This document shows, piece by piece, positions 13,462-29,585 of a stretch of 64,000 nt of DNA; position 1 is the first letter of the stretch; the number at the start of each line of letters is the position of its first letter. Origin of the DNA: Ruminococcus sp. (GTDB taxonomy: Bacteria; Bacillota; Clostridia; Oscillospirales; Ruminococcaceae); assembly GCA_015066805.1 (NCBI GenBank), contig SVNP01000007.1, forward strand, positions 1 through 64,000, written 5' to 3'. The notes beneath the pieces were generated by a model that saw only the letters and a program-made list of their open reading frames with translations, did not search any database and was not told the DNA's origin. The translations under genes were made by a program, and so were the position numbers.

Positions 13462-15513
13462 TTACAGACCTGCCAGAATCTTCAGAATTGCGATGGAGTC
13501 GTTGCCGGTTACGCCCTCAACGCCATCAGCCTCTGCATTGAGCATACCCTGTGCAGTGATCTCAATGGTCTGATCCTCGGCCAGGAAGCGGTTCAGCAGA
13601 ATAACGTCACCGATCTTCACATTGCCGTCGCAGTTTACGTCGCCTACGTTCACCTCAACCTCAGGCTCATCGCCGGGGATGGGTGCGGGGTTCAGCTCTT
13701 CCTCGGTCAGGCCGTTGATGCCGATCACGTTGCCCTCAGCATCATACATGATAACAGACAGCAGCTTTGCGGTACCTTCGCCAACGTACTCGGTGATCTC
13801 CTCCTCGGTCTCGGGGTCGATCTCACCGGTGCCCACACGATTCTCGTTAACCCACCACATCTGCACCTGAGGAGCATAGCCTGCGGGAATACCGCCATCA
13901 ATGCCTTCCACCAGAACAGAGCCGAAGTTGCCGGAGAAATCATAGTTTACGGAATGCCATTCGTCATCGGCATCGGCATAGCCTACTGCGCCGTTGACAT
14001 AGCCGGTATCTACCTGGAAGAACAGCTCCATGGAAGCCACCTGAGTAGCGTCCACATCGGTCATATCCACGATATAAGCCACAGAGTCGCCATCGTAGTC
14101 TGCGCCATTGCCGTACTTCTTTGCCAGATAGTCATCGGTGTTTACAGGGACAATCTGATTGCCGTCAGCATCATACAGCTTTACATAAACAAGCTGTGCA
14201 GTACCTACGGAGCCTGCTTCCATAATGGGGTTGCCGTCCTCGTCAACCGCACCGGAATCCTTATCATAGAAGGGATTGGTGTACCAGAACTGTACCTGTG
14301 CAGAGGGATAGTTGGGATCCAGCTTGCCTGCCAGACCGGTCATCTCCCAAACGCCGTACTTCTCGGAGGTCTCGCACTCCACGGTAGTCCAGACATCTTC
14401 CTCGCCGGAAACATCGTTGTAGCCCATGCAGCCGTTCACATAGGAGGAATCCACATAGATACCTGCCTCGATACGGTCGATGACAGATGCATCAATGCCG
14501 GTGAAGGGGATCACATAAGCGGTATCGAATTCCTCATCACTGGTACGCTCCAGCAGAGAGTTGGTGATGTCCACGGGAACCAGCTCGTTGCCGTCTGCAT
14601 CGTAGTAGCGGACAGCCATGAGCTGAACGGTACCGGGATCGCCGGGAACAGACTCTTCCGTTTCCTCATCGTAGACATAGAAGGGGTTCACATACCAGAA
14701 CTGCAGGTTTGCAGCGGGGAACTCGGGATCCAGCTTACCTGCCAGGCCATCCACAGACCAGGTGTCGTACAGACCGCTGGTTTCCTGCTCGACCTGTACC
14801 CAGTTGGTGGAGGTTTCGTCGTCGGGGTCTACTTCAATGGTGGTATCGGTATAACCGATGGAACCGTTGACAAAGCCGGTGTTTACAGCCACATCAGCCT
14901 CGATCTTGTCCACGGCGGAAGCGTCGATACCAACGAAGTTGAAGTTGTAGGTGACATTCTCATCATCGGTCTGTGCAGAGATGAGTGCGTCCTCGTAGGT
15001 ACCGAAGTAACCAAGAATGTTGTCGTCTGCGTCATACAGCGTCACATCATACAGGGTTGCGGTACCGTCGCCGGTGGCCTCACCGTCGGCATCGTAGAAG
15101 GACTGGATCCACCAGATCTGGAACATGAAGTTTGCGCTTTCCTGCTCCATGGTGCCTGCCAGACCGTCTGCGGAAACGACCATCTCAGCGTTAGGGGAGC
15201 CTTTGCAATCCCACGAAACCTGATTCCAGGTGAACTTGTCGTCCTCGTCGGTGGCCTCGGGGTTGGCAACATTGTAACCGAAGCAGCCGTTTGCCTCGCC
15301 GGTATCTACGGAGATAGTGGCATCAATACGGTCTACGGCGGTTACGTCGATGCTGCTGATGTCAAAGCTGATCTCCTTGGTACCATCAGCGGTAGACAAC
15401 AGAGCGGTTTCGGCATCTGCTGCCTGAACGCCCACAAACTGGCAGCTCAGCGCGGAAAGCGTGAGTGCAGCGGCGGTCATGGCAGAGAAGCCCTTGCGAA
15501 TAGATTTTTGCAT
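13462..15513 (-). CDS. Secreted dockerin protein with four repeated beta-rich modules
   Basis: 683 residues. The signal peptide ends near VQA at residue 30. Four related modules follow at about 45-175, 186-315, 331-460 and 478-600. Each has a D-x-I-x-A-x-x-x-V-x-T/S-x-x-x-N-G core with GY, a Trp-bearing middle with GLAGKLDP or similar, a WW/FWY strand and a closing YDADGN strand. A type I dockerin ends the protein (623-683, starting GDVNCDGNVKIGDVILLNRF), with a clear first calcium loop and a less regular second one. It should dock onto a cohesin scaffoldin at the cell surface. No catalytic domain is seen; the modules may bind polysaccharide (inference). Transcribed alone, with its own terminator. 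Confidence 0.85.
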   Translation of the reverse strand: MQKSIRKGFSAMTAAALTLSALSCQFVGVQAADAETALLSTADGTKEISFDISSIDVTAVDRIDATISVDTGEANGCFGYNVANPEATDEDDKFTWNQVSWDCKGSPNAEMVVSADGLAGTMEQESANFMFQIWWIQSFYDADGEATGDGTATLYDVTLYDADDNILGYFGTYEDALISAQTDDENVTYNFNFVGIDASAVDKIEADVAVNTGFVNGSIGYTDTTIEVDPDDETSTNWVQVEQETSGLYDTWSVDGLAGKLDPEFPAANLQFWYVNPFYVYDEETEESVPGDPGTVQLMAVRYYDADGNELVPVDITNSLLERTSDEEFDTAYVIPFTGIDASVIDRIEAGIYVDSSYVNGCMGYNDVSGEEDVWTTVECETSEKYGVWEMTGLAGKLDPNYPSAQVQFWYTNPFYDKDSGAVDEDGNPIMEAGSVGTAQLVYVKLYDADGNQIVPVNTDDYLAKKYGNGADYDGDSVAYIVDMTDVDATQVASMELFFQVDTGYVNGAVGYADADDEWHSVNYDFSGNFGSVLVEGIDGGIPAGYAPQVQMWWVNENRVGTGEIDPETEEEITEYVGEGTAKLLSVIMYDAEGNVIGINGLTEEELNPAPIPGDEPEVEVNVGDVNCDGNVKIGDVILLNRFLAEDQTIEITAQGMLNAEADGVEGVTGNDSIAILKILAGL

Positions 15514-15664: not shown

Positions 15665-15710
15665 CAAATCCGGCATCTGTGAAGCATTTTCTTCACAGAT
15701 GCCGGTGTTT
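15665..15710 (-). terminator. Rho-independent terminator after the GGDEF/EAL gene
   Basis: A 15-base perfect stem CCGGCATCTGTGAAG and its complement with a six-base loop, 27 bases after the stop at 15732. T-rich sequence follows on both strands. Confidence 0.88.
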
Positions 15711-15731: not shown

Positions 15732-18700
15732 TTATTCGTTAATATCCAACTGCTGGGAGCCGCCGATATGCAGCAGCTTGCCCTCTGCGGCAGCCATATG
15801 CATGGTTGTGGCGGCCTGTGCTTTTACGCACAAATTGGCATCCGTCACAGTAATGTCGGCATCATATGCGGCACTGCCGATGGTCAGCACACGGGTACCC
15901 TCGCAGTCCAGCGTCACATCGCTGCGCTTGAGTACAATATTGGGTGCGCCGTCATCGGAGCCGAGCACCGTTGCCGATCTTGCCTTCAGCGCAGCATTCA
16001 GGGTAGAATCCTTCAGCTTGATATTGGCACCGCCCTTCAGGGAACCAACAGCCACCACCTGTTTGCCGGAACCTGTCACGTCCAGCTCTGCGGTGTTCAT
16101 TATCACATCCGGTCTGCCTTCCTTTGCGCCGATGGCAATGCCCGAAACGGAACGGATCTCAATACAAGCACTACAGCCGGAAAGCTCAATACTGCAATCG
16201 CCTTCCTCCGCACCGATACCGATGCTTTCTGCGCCGTCCATCATCATAAACAGCTTCGTACCGCAAATCTTGATCTCCTGCCCGTGGGCATAGCCGCCGC
16301 CGATGCCGATAGCACGGTCACCGCCGGTGGTGATTTGCAGACAGCCCGCCATATCAATGTTGATATTGCCAAAGCCCATTTCCACATCGCCGCCGATGGC
16401 ACTGCTTTGCACGTCGGCGCAGCCGATGGTCAGGTTGCCTCGTCCCGTCAGATGGAGAGAAGCGGTTTCCGGCACGCAGATGCCTGCGTGATCCAGGCGG
16501 TTATCGCCGTTGATTTCCAACGTAATATTGCTGTTGCGCCCCAGCACAATGGAGGGGGCGTTGGTCATGGAGCTGAGATGCACGTCCCGCATCACAATGC
16601 GGGAGGTCAGGTGATCCTTGCACTTAACGGTAATATTGCTGGAGATACCGAAGTTGCCTACGATCTCCGCATAGGGCTGGGAAATAAAGATATCGGTGTA
16701 TTTTTCCAGTGCCAGCTTGGCGATGTCAATGGGCTCACTGCCCGTTGCCATAAAGGTCTTGCGGATGCTGTGGCCGGAAACACTGGTGCTGATCTTCAGC
16801 ATATTGATCTTAATGGCAGGGTCGATCTCCGCAGCGGGCATAGGCTCCGGCTTTGCTGTATAGTTGCCTTGGATCAGATCCACGCCGAAACGGATGACCG
16901 CACGCATTTCCTCGGGGGTTTCCACGCCCTCTGCCAGTGCAAGGAAGCCGTTGGCATGGGCAAATTCAATGATGTTGGTCACAAAATGCTGCTTTTTCGG
17001 CTCCTCGTGGATATTGCTGATGAGGCTGTGGTCGATCTTCACATAGTTGGGGGAATAATGCAGCAGATTGGTAATGTTGGAGTAGCCTGTACCGTAATCA
17101 TCTACGGCGATCTCCATATTCTCACGCTGGCAGCGTCCCTGAATATGGTTCAGCTCATCGCCCACCGTTTCGGCTCGCTCGGTAAACTCCACCACCAGGC
17201 GGGGCAGCAAATCGGCATACTCCGCACGGAGGGTTTCAAAATCGGGGTCTGTCAGGAAATGCCCCGGAATACTGTTTAAAAAGATCTTATGGTCGGCAAA
17301 CAGGGCTTCGTGGTCACGCAGATAGCCCAGCACATTGCGGTAGGTGAGCCATTCCACCTCATACAGCTTGCCCAGATCCGCAGCATACTGCAGCAGCAGC
17401 AGCGGAGAGATCTGTCGTTCGCCGTTGGTACGCATCAAAGCCTCATAGGCATAGATATCACCTGTTTTGGCGTGCACAATGGGCTGGAAATGGTAAGTCA
17501 GGCGATTTTCGGAAAGAATATCCGCCACCACACGGGCAGTTTCGCTGTCTGCGGGGGCTTTTTTACCCTGCTGCAAAGCGGTCTGCTTGTAGGCATTCTT
17601 ACGGGCAATGGCTTCGGAGATCAGACTCTCCACGGCAGGTGCGGAGGAAAGAGGCACCGTCACCTTGCCCACGGCCAGCTCCAGACTGTAATTTTTGCCC
17701 GATACCTGATTATAGCTGCGGATACGGCTTGTCAGCACATCCACAATGGCATCGGCGGTATTCACACGCAGGTCGGACACCACAAACGATACCAGAAACT
17801 CATCGCCGCCCACGCGGGCAGAAAGCACGTTGCTGTCAATACAATCGCTGATGGCACCGGCAAGACTCAGCAATGCCTGATCGCCCTCATCGTGCCCGAA
17901 CACTGCATTGATCTGCCGCAGATTGGTCAGACCGAACACCAGCATCACCAGCCGGCGGTCATCTCCGTGTTCTTCTTCCAGACACTCATGCAGTGCCTTA
18001 ACCACACCGTTCATATTCAGCATACCGGTCAGGGCATCACGGATACGGGCAGAGCGCAGCTCTTCATTCATGGCCTTCAGGCGGCCGGTATTCAGGCTTG
18101 CACCGATCACATTGCCCGCAGAATGCATAAACTTGGGCAGCTTAAAGCATTCCTCATCCATATCGTTGCCGTAGTAGGCGTAGTAGCCGTAGATCTCATT
18201 CTGCCAGTAGATAGAGGTGATCAGCACCACAGGCTCTTTTGTAAGAATATCCTCCAGCGCAGGCAGCAGATCGGCACGGGTGACCAGAGCAAAGCGTTTC
18301 TCCTTGCCCTTCAGCGTCACCGTACTCATAAGCTCGGTACCATCTGCAAAATGATTATACGCCGTGGCAGGCGTTTCTGCCGAAAGGCAATCCCGCAGGC
18401 AGATATAGGACTGGGGCGGCATATGATTTGCCAGCACATCCAGATAATCAATGACGGTACAGGTTTCCCGCTCCATCAGCATCCCCAGAAAATGGTGTAC
18501 ATAGGATTCCAATATAATGCCTGCCTGCAGGCGGTTATGATAAAACTCCAGCGCACGGTTCTGATCCAACTGCTCCGTGGCACGGCAGCCGCAGGATTCG
18601 GAGATCCGCAGCACAGGGGGTACCTCATGCTCGGAATCCACATTGCAGCCCTCCATGGCCATTTCCGCCACATCGAAGAAGGTTGCGGTCAGGGTGTCCA

Positions 18701-19442
18701 GATCCTTGGCGCAGGTAGTCAGTCTGGGGGTATGGTACTGCTCCCGCACAATGCCGTCGCAGCCGGTCACGATCACATCCTCGGGCACATTCAGTCCATG
18801 CTGCCGCAAAACGGCGCAGCAAGCCATGGCCATGTCATCATTTGCACAGATGATGGCCTCGGGGATATCATATGCCAGCAGACGCTCGGTGGCGGCTATG
18901 GCAGGCCGCGACCAATATTCGCCATATTCCACACGGTTTTCATCGTATGCCACACCATGGGCACGCAGTACCTCCTGGTAGGCAAAGTGCATGCACTCGG
19001 AGCCGTAATGCCCGCGGATACCTGTGATGAGATCCACACGGCGGCAGCCATGCACGGAAAAAACATGGTTCAGCAACTGGGTAAAGCCCTGATTGGAATA
19101 GCAGAATACACTGGGGCAATCGGAAAAACGCCCCGCATATGCCAGCACGGGGGTATGGTGCTCCTCCGCAGCGGCACAGATCATATGAGAAATGGTATGG
19201 TTGGAGATGGTCTCCGGCATGAGCACAACGGCATCGGCAATGGCAAAGGGGATCAGATCAAACACGCTGTGGCAGCCTGCATCGGCTGCACCGATCTCTG
19301 TTTCTTCCAATGCGGAATTACACACAATAACGGCATAGTTTCGCTTGGCGGCTTCTTTTACAAAATGTCGCACACTTTTCCGCACTTCATCATTATGGAT
19401 CCGTGCGGTACACAGCACAAACAATTTCTTTCCGCCGATCAT
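15732..19442 (-). CDS. LacI-type sensor, degenerate GGDEF, EAL phosphodiesterase and beta-helix-like tail fusion
   Basis: 1236 residues with no signal peptide or membrane segment, so cytoplasmic. Residues 1-280 form a LacI/GalR-type ligand-binding domain without the DNA-binding head. Residues 290-460 are a helical/GAF-like linker. A GGDEF domain covers about 465-620: the RVGGDEF signature (543-549) is intact, but the usual metal-binding Asp of DxDxFK is Gly in FGLTNLRQIN, so cyclase activity is doubtful. An EAL domain covers about 640-880 with EALMR (667-671), FLN, VEFTE, DDYGTGYSN (781 on), VKID, AEGVET and QG all present, so cyclic-di-GMP hydrolysis is expected. Residues 900-1236 are short beta repeats (IGIGGG, IGIGAEEG, IAIGAKEG), like beta-helix carbohydrate-binding proteins. 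It has its own promoter and terminator. Confidence 0.88.
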   Translation of the reverse strand: MIGGKKLFVLCTARIHNDEVRKSVRHFVKEAAKRNYAVIVCNSALEETEIGAADAGCHSVFDLIPFAIADAVVLMPETISNHTISHMICAAAEEHHTPVLAYAGRFSDCPSVFCYSNQGFTQLLNHVFSVHGCRRVDLITGIRGHYGSECMHFAYQEVLRAHGVAYDENRVEYGEYWSRPAIAATERLLAYDIPEAIICANDDMAMACCAVLRQHGLNVPEDVIVTGCDGIVREQYHTPRLTTCAKDLDTLTATFFDVAEMAMEGCNVDSEHEVPPVLRISESCGCRATEQLDQNRALEFYHNRLQAGIILESYVHHFLGMLMERETCTVIDYLDVLANHMPPQSYICLRDCLSAETPATAYNHFADGTELMSTVTLKGKEKRFALVTRADLLPALEDILTKEPVVLITSIYWQNEIYGYYAYYGNDMDEECFKLPKFMHSAGNVIGASLNTGRLKAMNEELRSARIRDALTGMLNMNGVVKALHECLEEEHGDDRRLVMLVFGLTNLRQINAVFGHDEGDQALLSLAGAISDCIDSNVLSARVGGDEFLVSFVVSDLRVNTADAIVDVLTSRIRSYNQVSGKNYSLELAVGKVTVPLSSAPAVESLISEAIARKNAYKQTALQQGKKAPADSETARVVADILSENRLTYHFQPIVHAKTGDIYAYEALMRTNGERQISPLLLLQYAADLGKLYEVEWLTYRNVLGYLRDHEALFADHKIFLNSIPGHFLTDPDFETLRAEYADLLPRLVVEFTERAETVGDELNHIQGRCQRENMEIAVDDYGTGYSNITNLLHYSPNYVKIDHSLISNIHEEPKKQHFVTNIIEFAHANGFLALAEGVETPEEMRAVIRFGVDLIQGNYTAKPEPMPAAEIDPAIKINMLKISTSVSGHSIRKTFMATGSEPIDIAKLALEKYTDIFISQPYAEIVGNFGISSNITVKCKDHLTSRIVMRDVHLSSMTNAPSIVLGRNSNITLEINGDNRLDHAGICVPETASLHLTGRGNLTIGCADVQSSAIGGDVEMGFGNINIDMAGCLQITTGGDRAIGIGGGYAHGQEIKICGTKLFMMMDGAESIGIGAEEGDCSIELSGCSACIEIRSVSGIAIGAKEGRPDVIMNTAELDVTGSGKQVVAVGSLKGGANIKLKDSTLNAALKARSATVLGSDDGAPNIVLKRSDVTLDCEGTRVLTIGSAAYDADITVTDANLCVKAQAATTMHMAAAEGKLLHIGGSQQLDINE

Positions 19443-19494: not shown

Positions 19495-19523
19495 ATTCTA
19501 TCACATTTTCATGATATTGTCAA
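19495..19523 (-). promoter_or_regulatory. Promoter of the GGDEF/EAL gene
   Basis: On the minus strand there is a TTGACA (19518-19523), a 17-base spacer and a TAGAAT (19495-19500), 52 bases upstream of the start codon. Confidence 0.75.
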
Positions 19524-19687: not shown

Positions 19688-21103
19688 TCAGTCCTTCTTC
19701 TCAAAGGAAACGCCCTGACGTGTTTCACGGATCTCCCAGCCCAAAGCCTGAATCTCCGCACGCAATGCGTCTGCCTTGGCAAAATCCTTTGCCTGACGTG
19801 CAGCCTTACGTTCTTCGGCAAGAGCCAGAACCTCTGCGGGAACCTCAGGCTCTGCGGTTTCGGCAGCCAGAGCCTTGGCATTTTCCAGCAGACCCAGAGA
19901 AAGCACGGTGTCCATCTCTGCGATGCAGGCGAGCTTTGTGGCGGCATTGGTCTTTGCCTTCAGCACGTCATACAACACGGTAATGGCCTGTGCGGTGTTC
20001 AGATCGTTATCCATGGCTTCACGGTACTGTGCCAGATATGCCTCCTTGACTGCTTCGTCCACGGCCTCGGCAGGGGCAGCCTGCAGCGCAGCAATCTTTG
20101 CCAGCAGCTTCTGATAAGCCTGTGCAGCGTTGTCCAGATTCTCATAGGAGAACACCAGAGATTTGCGGTAATGGGACTGCATACAGAAGAAACGGTATGC
20201 CATGGGAGAATACCCTTTGCTTTCCAGCAGAGAAACGGTCAGGAACTCGCCGCTGGATTTGCTCATTTTACCGCTGTTGGTGTTCAGGTGCAGCACATGG
20301 AACCAATGCTTGCACCAAGGATGACCCAGATATGCCTCACTCTGTGCGATCTCGTTGGTGTGGTGGGGGAATACGTTATCAATGCCGCCACAGTGCAGAT
20401 CCAGTGTTTCGCCGCAGTATTTCATACTGATGCCGGAGCACTCAATGTGCCAGCCGGGGTAACCCAGACCCCAGGGGCTTTCCCACTTCAGCTCCTGGTC
20501 ATCAAACTTGGATTTGGTGAACCACAGAACGAAATCCGCCTTATTGCGCTTGTTTTCGTCGGCATCCACGCCATCACGCACGCCGACCTCCAGATCCTCC
20601 TCCTTGAAATCAAGGAACACATAGTAGCGCTCCAGCTTGGAGGTATCAAAATAAATGTTGCCGCCGGCTTCATAGGCATAACCCTTTTCCAGCAGGCCTT
20701 CCACCAGCGTAATAAACTCGGCAATGCAGCCCGTTGCGGGAGCCACCACCTCGGGACGCTTGATGTGCAGCTTTTCGCAGTCACTGAAGAAGGCATCGGT
20801 ATAAAACTGTGCGATCTCCATGACGGTTTTCTTCTCACGCTTGGCACCCTTGAGCATCTTATCATCGCCGGTGTCACCGTCAGAGGTCAGATGTCCCACG
20901 TCGGTGATATTCATAACGCGCAGCACATCATAGCCAATGTAGCGCAGATATTTATCCAGCACATCCTCCATCATATAGGTACGCAGGTTGCCGATGTGTG
21001 CGTAGTGATATACCGTAGGGCCGCAGGTGTACATTTTCACCTTGCCCTCCTCCACAGTGGTAAAGGTTTCCTTTTGCTTGGTCAAAGAGTTATAAAGCAG
21101 CAT
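19688..21103 (-). CDS. cysS: Cysteine--tRNA ligase
   Basis: 471 residues, normal length. The class I signature is YHYAHIGNLR and the second signature is GKMSKSSGEF. The zinc-binding cysteine is in CGPTVY, and the HxxE-type ligands lie in WHIECSGIS and HHTNEIAQSE. It charges tRNA-Cys. The ribosome site AAAGGA is seven bases before the ATG. No T-box leader is seen between the promoter at 21147-21175 and the gene. It has its own promoter and terminator, so it is probably a single-gene unit. Confidence 0.97.
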   Translation of the reverse strand: MLLYNSLTKQKETFTTVEEGKVKMYTCGPTVYHYAHIGNLRTYMMEDVLDKYLRYIGYDVLRVMNITDVGHLTSDGDTGDDKMLKGAKREKKTVMEIAQFYTDAFFSDCEKLHIKRPEVVAPATGCIAEFITLVEGLLEKGYAYEAGGNIYFDTSKLERYYVFLDFKEEDLEVGVRDGVDADENKRNKADFVLWFTKSKFDDQELKWESPWGLGYPGWHIECSGISMKYCGETLDLHCGGIDNVFPHHTNEIAQSEAYLGHPWCKHWFHVLHLNTNSGKMSKSSGEFLTVSLLESKGYSPMAYRFFCMQSHYRKSLVFSYENLDNAAQAYQKLLAKIAALQAAPAEAVDEAVKEAYLAQYREAMDNDLNTAQAITVLYDVLKAKTNAATKLACIAEMDTVLSLGLLENAKALAAETAEPEVPAEVLALAEERKAARQAKDFAKADALRAEIQALGWEIRETRQGVSFEKKD

Positions 21104-27953: not shown

Positions 27954-29585
27954 TTACCGCTGCTTGCGGCGGAACGCAAAGGCCGCTGCCAGTGCAAGCA
28001 GACCGGCAGCCGCAATTCCGACAGGAGCTGTATCACCGGTCTGCACGCTGAGTGCCGTGGTGACCGTGGTGCTTTCATCGGTTGCGATCTGCATGGATGC
28101 GGGAGTCGTGGTTGTAGTGGCTTCTGTGGTGGATTCTGCGGCAGTTGTTGTCGTAGTTGTGGTGGATTCTGTGGTGGTCGTGGTAGTTGCTGTTGTTGTG
28201 GATTCGGTGGTGGTAGTTGTGGTAGTAGTTGTGGTTGTGGAGGTTGTAGTGGTGGTCGTGGTCGTAGTAGTTGTAGTCGTAGTAGTTGTGGTCGTGGTTG
28301 TGGTGGTTGTAGTCGTCGTGGTGGTTGTTGTAGTCGTCGTGGTGGTGGTTGTGGTTGTAGTTGTGGAGGTAGTAGTAGGCTCGGTAGTAGTAGTGGTGGT
28401 TGTTGTGGTGGTAGTGATAGGCTCGGTAGTAGTGGTGGTTGTTGTGGTGGTGGTAATAGGCTCGGTAGTAGTGGTGGTCGTTGTGGTAGTGGTAATAGGC
28501 TCGGTAGTAGTAGTGGTGGTTGTTGTGGTGGTGGTAGTAGTTGTTGTGGTGGTTGTGGTGGTAGTGGTTTCTTCTTCCTCTTCTGCGGAAAGCAGATCAT
28601 CGGGGGCGTCAAAATGGGCATAGCCGAACTCAATGCCGCCGACATAGGATTTTGCAATGGTCTGACCGGAAACATGGGCACCGGCTACCATATCATCGCT
28701 GCCGTCTGCATTGGGTGCCAACACGGAGCCAAAGAATGTTCCGTAGCCTGCATAAGTGAAGGTTTCGGCATCGGGCAGATTATACAGGATCCGTTCGGAG
28801 CCGGGGCCGTCATTGCCTGCGATCCGCACATCATTGAATGCCACGCCTGCGCTCATGGTAGCCATAACGGGGGCATCCCCTGTAATATTGATCAGGGCAT
28901 AGCTGCCCTCGGGAATGATAAAATTGAAATAAGTGGCGTAGGGATTGTACAGAGCAGCCCATTCCTCTGCGGTAAAGCTCCATACATACAGATCGGCATC
29001 GCCTTCACCCACAAAGCGTACCTCGCCTGCCCAGGAGCCTGTTTCCGTATAGCCGTTCACAGGCATCTGTGCCAGCTTTGCAGAGGTCGTGCGCAGTGCG
29101 GCAAATTCTGCGGCAAAATCAATCAGATCGGCACGATACAGCACAGGGGTGCTGTCAAGCTGTACATTTTCATCGGGCATATCCTTGCCGATGACCACTG
29201 CCGCTTCATTCCGGAACGTGAAATTGGAGATGGGGCCTTCCCCCACAATGACCATAGCCACTTCCGATGCATAATCGGCAAACTCCATACCCACATGATA
29301 GAAGGGGGTCATGGTGCTGATGTTGGCAGCACCGCCTGCGGCCAGTCTGCCTTCGCAGTCAGAGCCGTTTGCACCGAAATCCTCCTCCACAAACACGGAA
29401 AACAACGATGCGGTACCCAGCAGCAGATCCTCTGCGCCCTGTGCGTTCAGCAATTGTGCAGCACGGTCTGCATCCGGTACTGTGCCAATGCTGTAATCCT
29501 CTGCAAAGCCAACGGTCACGCCCACACTTAAGGCCAGTGCCGCTGCGGCCGCAGATGCCAGACCTTGCAAGCCTTGTTTCTTCAT
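27954..29585 (-). CDS. Cell-wall-anchored choice-of-anchor A protein with poly-Thr stalk
   Basis: 543 residues. A signal peptide (about residues 1-28) is followed by the adhesin-like choice-of-anchor A domain (about 50-340, with GSDCEGRLAAGGAANIST). A stalk of some 160 residues is almost all Thr, broken by EPITTT blocks. The C-terminus has a sorting signal with QTGDTAPVG, a hydrophobic stretch and RRKQR, a variant of the LPxTG-type signal. It is probably linked to the wall by a sortase, with the stalk holding the domain away from the surface. Thr-rich stalks can be O-glycosylated (inference). Confidence 0.87.
   Translation of the reverse strand: MKKQGLQGLASAAAAALALSVGVTVGFAEDYSIGTVPDADRAAQLLNAQGAEDLLLGTASLFSVFVEEDFGANGSDCEGRLAAGGAANISTMTPFYHVGMEFADYASEVAMVIVGEGPISNFTFRNEAAVVIGKDMPDENVQLDSTPVLYRADLIDFAAEFAALRTTSAKLAQMPVNGYTETGSWAGEVRFVGEGDADLYVWSFTAEEWAALYNPYATYFNFIIPEGSYALINITGDAPVMATMSAGVAFNDVRIAGNDGPGSERILYNLPDAETFTYAGYGTFFGSVLAPNADGSDDMVAGAHVSGQTIAKSYVGGIEFGYAHFDAPDDLLSAEEEEETTTTTTTTTTTTTTTTTTTTTTEPITTTTTTTTTTEPITTTTTTTTTTEPITTTTTTTTTTTEPTTTSTTTTTTTTTTTTTTTTTTTTTTTTTTTTTTTTTTTTTTTTTSTTTTTTTTTTTESTTTATTTTTTESTTTTTTTAAESTTEATTTTTPASMQIATDESTTVTTALSVQTGDTAPVGIAAAGLLALAAAFAFRRKQR
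28096..28572 (-). repeat. Low-complexity Thr-codon tract
   Basis: Nearly unbroken ACC/ACT/ACA/ACG codons (minus strand) encoding the stalk of the surface protein. Codons are mixed, so the DNA is not an exact short repeat, but three longer blocks ending in the codons for EPI recur every 13 residues. Such a tract is prone to length change by slippage or unequal recombination. Confidence 0.9.

Follow-up and report, generated by a model that had tools for sequence, protein, structure and literature searches.

The gene at positions 15732..19442 of the window (the entire 64,000-nucleotide stretch of Ruminococcus sp. contig SVNP01000007.1 that was analysed) encodes one member of a recurrent protein family in which an EAL domain is followed by a beta-helix tail and the domains in front of the EAL are exchangeable. 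LacI-type or GGDEF inputs joined to EAL are of a known kind; the output formed by the beta-helix is an addition without a name, and the tail recurs as a companion of one EAL family in rumen and gut relatives of Ruminococcus. No fusion of EAL with a beta-helix is described in the titles and opening lines of abstracts among the literature matches listed, a body of text with most subscription papers and bioRxiv preprints outside its scope. The finding indicates that a well-studied signalling superfamily still contains an unannotated domain. Accounts of EAL proteins usually centre on the upstream domains; here a large downstream module stays while the inputs swap. We put forward that the protein in the window may be a LacI-controlled cytoplasmic c-di-GMP phosphodiesterase whose non-enzymatic beta-helix tail serves docking or scaffolding, an explanation that we regard as evenly poised between right and wrong.

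Domain architecture and integrity of the reading frame

The gene and the parts of its product are arranged as follows.

15732..19442, minus strand: whole gene, 1236 amino acids, ATG start and TAA stop (single open frame; end-to-end homologues)
18558..19442, minus strand: LacI-type periplasmic-binding-protein-like sensor, residues 1-295 (Pfam and our own family HMM for 1-295)
18081..18557, minus strand: region of about 160 residues (296-454) between sensor and GGDEF, without family match
17556..18080, minus strand: degenerate GGDEF domain, residues 455-629, with RVGGDEF intact but DxDxFK lost (Pfam, own profiles, motif reading)
16842..17522, minus strand: EAL domain, residues 641-867, with the eight expected catalytic residues (Pfam, own profiles, alignments)
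15735..16817, minus strand: predicted beta-helix tail, residues 876-1236, with an N-terminal helix and regular 28-residue turns (predicted structure, glycine periodicity)

An earlier reading, made from the sequence alone, had placed an open frame at these outer coordinates, and the frame proved complete and real; the minus strand, which that reading had left unstated, is added here. Homologues that share the architecture from end to end occur in two genomes of the same genus, at 50% and 48% identity, so that the fusion is neither a matter of chance nor a mis-joined frame. The concern that an assembly error joins two genes, or that the fusion is a recent accident, is ruled out by the recurrence of the same fusion in independent genomes and retains a practically negligible probability; EAL and tail also stand together in every complete tail protein (48/48) and in loci from cultured Ruminococcus strains.

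The LacI-type nature of the input domain was confirmed by two Pfam families, both above cut-off, Peripla_BP_3 at residues 131-280 (E 6e-18; 65.9 bits, cut-off 26.5) and Peripla_BP_1 at residues 57-227 (24.6 bits, cut-off 22.2). These matches are shared with LacI/PurR-type domains. Unlike in LacI/PurR regulators, an HTH was not found within residues 1-295, and c-di-GMP domains take the place of the DNA-binding domain; a signal peptide was not seen in this segment either. LacI domains close on small ligands and, by analogy with the fold, the ligand of the sensor is probably a sugar, though LacI-type domains also bind non-sugars, as in PurR. The adjoining residues 296-454 gave zero Pfam matches up to E 10, and their best sequence match in the PDB had an E-value of 1.3 or worse.

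Linkage of EAL and tail and exchange of inputs

When the tail alone was used as a query, 34 of 197 genomes of the bacterial family, that of the window included, were matched. A tail profile found matches in 24 of 393 genomes of the class (16 over most of the profile, distributed over three families, and 8 in part only) and in 6 of 398 genomes of the phylum, 3 of them with a full tail. The family search contributed 39 and the class search 9 complete tail proteins, and in all 48 of them an EAL domain directly precedes the tail. The combination of EAL and beta-helix, for which the sequence-only reading had proposed a survey of architectures, is thus recurrent. Outside this set stand two proteins cut by contig ends (L044, L059), two further ones with EAL (L239, L240), four full-length places that were partly read and carry EAL (G577, G270, G368, G445), a partial match in a 132-residue frame (G071:C115) and weak partial matches from the class (L091, L092, L093) and the phylum (L103). 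Across all 151 frames with a tail match, a count that includes twice-fetched loci and loci found by the EAL-end pattern, EAL is present in 138; of the remaining 13, twelve match the tail in part only and one (L059) is truncated at a contig end. The less biased of the two linkage figures is 48/48. A scan of named genomes (475 relatives, 80 loci kept) was seeded on the EAL end and therefore carries no evidence for the linkage; it included R. flavefaciens FD-1, Y1 and YAD2003 as well as R. bicirculans 80/3. The cultured carriers accordingly include R. bicirculans and Ruminococcus flavefaciens, a model fibre degrader; in the literature covered, a single paper names both R. flavefaciens and GGDEF.

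The inputs of the 48 proteins vary. According to our own profiles, 11 carry LacI and GGDEF, 6 LacI, 15 GGDEF and 16 neither; Pfam at E 0.001 detects GGDEF in 24 and Peripla_BP_3 in 17. Paired N-terminal hydrophobic segments appear in nine of the 48 in a hydropathy scan.

A conserved gene partner was not found: nine neighbour clusters recur in at least three of the 48 loci, and none in more than five. A gene for a LacI-GGDEF protein does, on the other hand, lie within 5 kb in four of the 16 loci whose EAL-tail protein has neither domain (L038, L040, L048, L061), and by the same test in none of the other 32. Three of these four frames, on the same strand, overlap the EAL-tail frame or lie 4 bases away from it; they were read from stop to stop, and the true gaps may be larger. 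The chance that all four neighbours would fall among those 16 loci is about 0.009 (calculated by hand, post hoc, from flanks of at most 5 kb, some of them cut by contig ends). This distribution supports the view that LacI input and EAL-tail unit work together even when they are unfused.

The GGDEF and EAL domains

Pfam places the GGDEF match at residues 468-619 (E 4e-18). As had been read from the sequence, the signature is kept and the first Asp of DxDxFK is replaced by Gly; the second Asp is lost as well, the stretch being G-L-T-N-L-R where another protein encoded in this genome, a cyclase-like one, has D-M-D-G-L-K. Of the two motifs that mark an active cyclase, DxDxFK and GG[DE]EF, the window protein thus keeps only GGDEF. 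A GGDEF domain is recognisable in 26 family members; none of these retains both DxD and GG[DE]EF, and only three, the window protein among them, have the exact letters GGDEF. Decay of this domain is therefore the usual state in the EAL-tail family.

The EAL match at residues 643-865 lies above cut-off (E 2e-48; 165.5 bits, cut-off 31.3). The catalytic motifs had been described as complete, and all eight expected residues are indeed present: E667, N723, E752, D781, D782, K802, E838 and Q858 are invariant in 77/77 aligned rows, that of the window included, and likewise in a 48-row full-length alignment. These E, N, E, DD, K, E and Q residues are what we take to be the catalytic (metal- and substrate-binding) set. 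The window EAL aligns with solved EAL phosphodiesterases and, going by its intact motifs, probably cuts c-di-GMP. The order sensor-GGDEF-EAL and the intact EAL motifs are shared with GGDEF-EAL phosphodiesterases that have a degenerate GGDEF; in contrast to these, the window protein adds a C-terminal beta-helix of about 360 residues after the EAL.

A different role for the EAL domain has to be weighed here. It could be a receptor for c-di-GMP whose output, the beta-helix, would capture or release a partner upon c-di-GMP binding. The tail occupies the C-terminal, output position, the EAL has diverged from the general Pfam model (165 bits, where other EALs of the family reach up to 257), LapD and FimX, which are EAL-type c-di-GMP receptors, are among the remote matches, and the finding that 0/26 GGDEF domains keep both cyclase motifs is reminiscent of receptor-type GGDEF-EAL proteins. 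Receptor-type EALs, however, usually lose some catalytic residues, and the invariance of all eight in both alignments makes this reading unlikely.

The tail: fold, location and likely role

The beta-helix-like appearance of the tail, previously read from its repeats, is borne out by structure prediction, which yields a parallel beta-helix with high confidence (pLDDT 93, pTM 0.90) that matches solved beta-helices. Glycine-rich repeats do follow the EAL as described; the tail extends over about 360 residues (about 876-1236), slightly more than the roughly 330 given before. Conserved glycines repeat every 28 residues: over residues 1030-1215 the autocorrelation at lag 28 is 0.34, and 1000 permutations gave at most 0.31 at any lag. 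The orientation of the tail relative to the EAL is uncertain in the predicted model (pTM 0.62).

The protein had been described as lacking a signal peptide or membrane helix, and no hydrophobic segment showed up along it in a simple hydropathy scan; the same kind of scan found none after the EAL in any of the 48 complete tail proteins. Since the substrate of the EAL is cytoplasmic, the tail is very probably located in the cytoplasm, in support of the earlier proposal.

No known signalling domain matched the tail, a possibility that the sequence-only reading had itself raised. Pfam lists no family above cut-off for residues 876-1236 (a weak match to UPF0669 has E 0.045), and 39 tails gave scattered weak matches, 23 of 24 families appearing in one member each and the best, TruB-C_2, reaching E 0.00056 in one tail. 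DUF4353/Cthe_2159 is unlisted for the window protein (E <=1) and for the 39 tails (E <=10), and bactofilin is unlisted in the Pfam scans of both, in each case with HMMER filters that hide weak matches. The PDB offers no convincing sequence relative (best E 0.98, an arginase), and Foldseek returned zero matches at E 0.001 or better. A second structural comparison (VIA) places the tail in the beta-helix class, with alginate epimerases, polygalacturonases, inulin-active enzymes and tailspikes as neighbours. Autotransporter passengers, SRRP adhesins and alginate epimerases in the PDB have 5-14% identity to the tail and share only its fold; they are extracellular or periplasmic, and the tail is very probably not. 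Bactofilin and Cthe_2159 do not appear in the VIA neighbour list, an absence that excludes neither.

The tail is less conserved in sequence than the EAL. Of the columns conserved at 90% or more, 2 of 40 hold a charged residue in the tail and 15 of 63 in the EAL. So few conserved charged residues speak against an enzyme, and catalysis by the tail was judged unlikely from this pattern. Lower conservation, scarce conserved charge and a glycine framework taken together suggest a structural binding surface rather than a catalyst.

It might be argued that this surface binds, or acts on, an intracellular polysaccharide or oligosaccharide. The enzymes and tailspikes among the structural neighbours, and the surface-type proteins in which partial relatives of the tail reside, are in keeping with this idea. 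The neighbours nevertheless share one generic fold that demonstrates no function, none of them being found by Foldseek at E 0.001 or better; a conserved charged cluster is absent, and no carbohydrate family recurs in the weak Pfam matches of the 39 tails, where G8, NAGLU_N and others occur singly. We consider a carbohydrate-directed tail very unlikely. The tail might instead associate with itself, its beta-helices stacking into filaments or patches that cluster the phosphodiesterase. Bactofilins stack end to end, and with bactofilins and other cytoplasmic beta-helices the tail has its very probable location in common, next to a regular, confidently predicted, glycine-rich helix with few conserved charges; a sequence match to them is unlisted, and we know of no bactofilins fused to EAL. 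Both the helix predicted at the N-terminal end of the tail and the greater sequence variation compared with the EAL count against stacking, which we hold to be unlikely.

Resemblance to surface-type beta-helix proteins, expected from the look of the repeats, was found over part of the tail. Its partial relatives cover profile positions of about 44-280 and belong to long frames; as judged by eye, several of these frames have a signal-like N-terminus. All five that were scanned carry repeats of Beta_helix_3 (PF18889), a family that is unlisted for the 39 tails in the Pfam scan; one has SLH, two have cadherin-like and two Ig-like domains. EAL is present in none of ten whole or cut frames of such proteins. 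The glycine-rich repeat style is similar in both groups, whereas the full tail including its first 40 or so positions occurs only after EAL among the loci read. These relatives point to shared ancestry of the tail with surface-type beta-helices, or at least to a strong common sequence style. A solenoid of the surface-adhesin type could even have entered the cytoplasm on a single occasion, been fused to a single EAL subfamily and been retained in Ruminococcus relatives of gut and rumen as a new intracellular signalling output, serving as receptor for a polymer or protein scaffold inside the cell; we regard this as a doubtful extension. Stored glycogen and the surface-assembly machinery are candidate internal targets for such a receptor. 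If it existed, the removal of c-di-GMP would depend jointly on a small ligand from the nutrient supply and on a large target within the cell.

The EAL subfamily and the origin of the tail

When the EAL of the tail proteins was compared with the 197 genomes, at least 66 places scored at least 189 bits and the next 163, the counts being lower bounds as only some candidates were scored in large genomes. The tail is present in 41 of the 66 subfamily places (the 39 complete proteins plus L239 and L240, all of them also matched in the tail-only search of the family) and missing in 25. Other frames at the 25 tail-less loci gave no tail match better than E 0.4. The four closest tail-less members have the order LacI-GGDEF-EAL and terminate in the linker, 21-25 residues beyond the EAL. 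The further 21, of which 20 are complete and one is cut N-terminally, have an N-terminus that is longer and of a different kind, and likewise end soon after the EAL.

In a tree, 75 sampled rows of the subfamily group together at 100/100 against 20 other EALs, taken from the top of the Pfam-score list for the same bacterial family; the window EAL thus belongs to a deep subfamily. The 21 tail-less proteins, mostly of about 1000 residues, form one clade, and the four tail-less LacI types group with one tail-bearing protein. The presence of the tail changes four times on the tree, as opposed to a mean of 31.8 with shuffled labels. The simplest story, and best read of this tree, would be one gain and three losses of the tail; the deepest branches are not firm. 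The tail as a marker of the entire EAL clade was dropped in view of the 25 tail-less members. Dispensable in evolution, the tail is not essential to this EAL type and would refine rather than enable its function.

Proposed mode of action and the c-di-GMP network of the genome

In the explanation that we prefer, that of a phosphodiesterase with a docking tail, a small ligand, probably a sugar, would bind to the N-terminal LacI-type domain, and the ligand state would be relayed via region 296-454 and the degenerate GGDEF to the EAL. EAL dimers are regulated by N-terminal domains, and the EAL, probably dimeric, would cut c-di-GMP, as its intact motifs suggest. The C-terminal beta-helix would offer an elongated docking or scaffold surface that holds the EAL at a partner, site or assembly; c-di-GMP would then be removed locally or the state of the EAL passed on. 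Should the LacI domain bind a plant-derived sugar, the protein would offer a way into the question of how adhesion or motility is set by the supply of fibre. Counting against this explanation are the 25 tail-less proteins among the 66 subfamily members, the diverged EAL, the uncertain orientation of the tail, the lack of a conserved gene partner and the binding of non-sugars by LacI-type domains such as PurR.

In the assembly, which is 79.6% complete, the EAL of the window protein is the only one found, next to one HD_5 match; a single knock-out or assay could therefore be informative. No PilZ match was found in the same assembly. Ten GGDEF matches, eight of them above cut-off, include the window protein. 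Seven of the nine others were scanned (L207 was left out, and L212 shares its frame with L205), and five of the seven have a LacI-type sensor: two with intact cyclase motifs, two with GGDEF and an AraC-type HTH, and one with an AraC HTH and no GGDEF at threshold. The remaining two combine a receiver domain (L205) or an AraC HTH (L211) with GGDEF. The LacI sensor hence is a shared chassis joined to different outputs within one genome, the EAL with its beta-helix being one of them.

Signals around the gene

Two further features flank the reading frame.

19495..19523, minus strand: TTGACA-17-TAGAAT, a promoter-like site upstream of the ATG in which TG precedes the second hexamer (consensus match)
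15670..15705, both strands: terminator-like hairpin with a 15-pair stem, 9 of the pairs GC, just past the stop codon

Five promoter-like sites occur in the region where 4.3 are expected, so that the match at 19495..19523 is weak when taken alone. Terminator-like sites number 12, as against 3.2 expected; the hairpin past the stop codon has its longer T run on the plus strand, and a second one lies between the gene and its upstream neighbour. With a promoter-like site and hairpins on both sides, the gene may form its own transcription unit. The neighbouring frames on the same strand extend over 19688-21103, read as cysteinyl-tRNA synthetase-like, and 13462-15513.

LacI-type sensors and the cysteine motif

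The protein encoded at 15732..19442 carries a short cysteine motif that could represent a hinge, a metal site or a redox site:

18576-18614 (protein residues 277-289), Ser-Cys-Gly-Cys motif immediately C-terminal to the LacI domain

The same motif directly follows the LacI domain in ten of the 17 LacI-bearing EAL proteins with a beta-helix tail, in five of seven LacI-type proteins encoded close to EAL-tail genes and in other LacI proteins of the source genome (2/5). Three loci of this genome combine a LacI-type sensor with a DNA-binding output:

L208:1153-3384, LacI-type sensor, GGDEF and AraC-type HTH
L210:1153-3387, LacI-type sensor, GGDEF and AraC-type HTH
L213:1156-3321, LacI-type sensor and AraC-type HTH

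In L208 and L210 the GGDEF domain lies between sensor and HTH. All three are possibly transcription factors under ligand and nucleotide control that share the LacI chassis of the EAL-tail protein.

Other proteins in the window and in searched genomes

Two further window genes were noted:

13462-15513, reverse strand, protein that looks secreted and on visual inspection contains repeat units, adjoining the 15732..19442 gene
27954-29585, reverse strand, surface-type protein with an ice-binding-like adhesive domain (PF20597, E 1e-39)

The former matches dockerin weakly at its C-terminus (E 0.02, under the cut-off); the latter contains a very long threonine tract and ends in a C-terminus that looks anchor-like by eye. 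In one tail-less group (L241-L261) of the EAL subfamily to which the 15732..19442 protein belongs, most proteins possess an N-terminal region of about 560 residues, and in L251, the one scanned, GGDEF and EAL were the sole domains named by Pfam. Loci L262-L265 encode proteins of about 600 residues with an N-terminal EAL domain, a middle part that we read as CBS-like and a C-terminal GGDEF-like domain.
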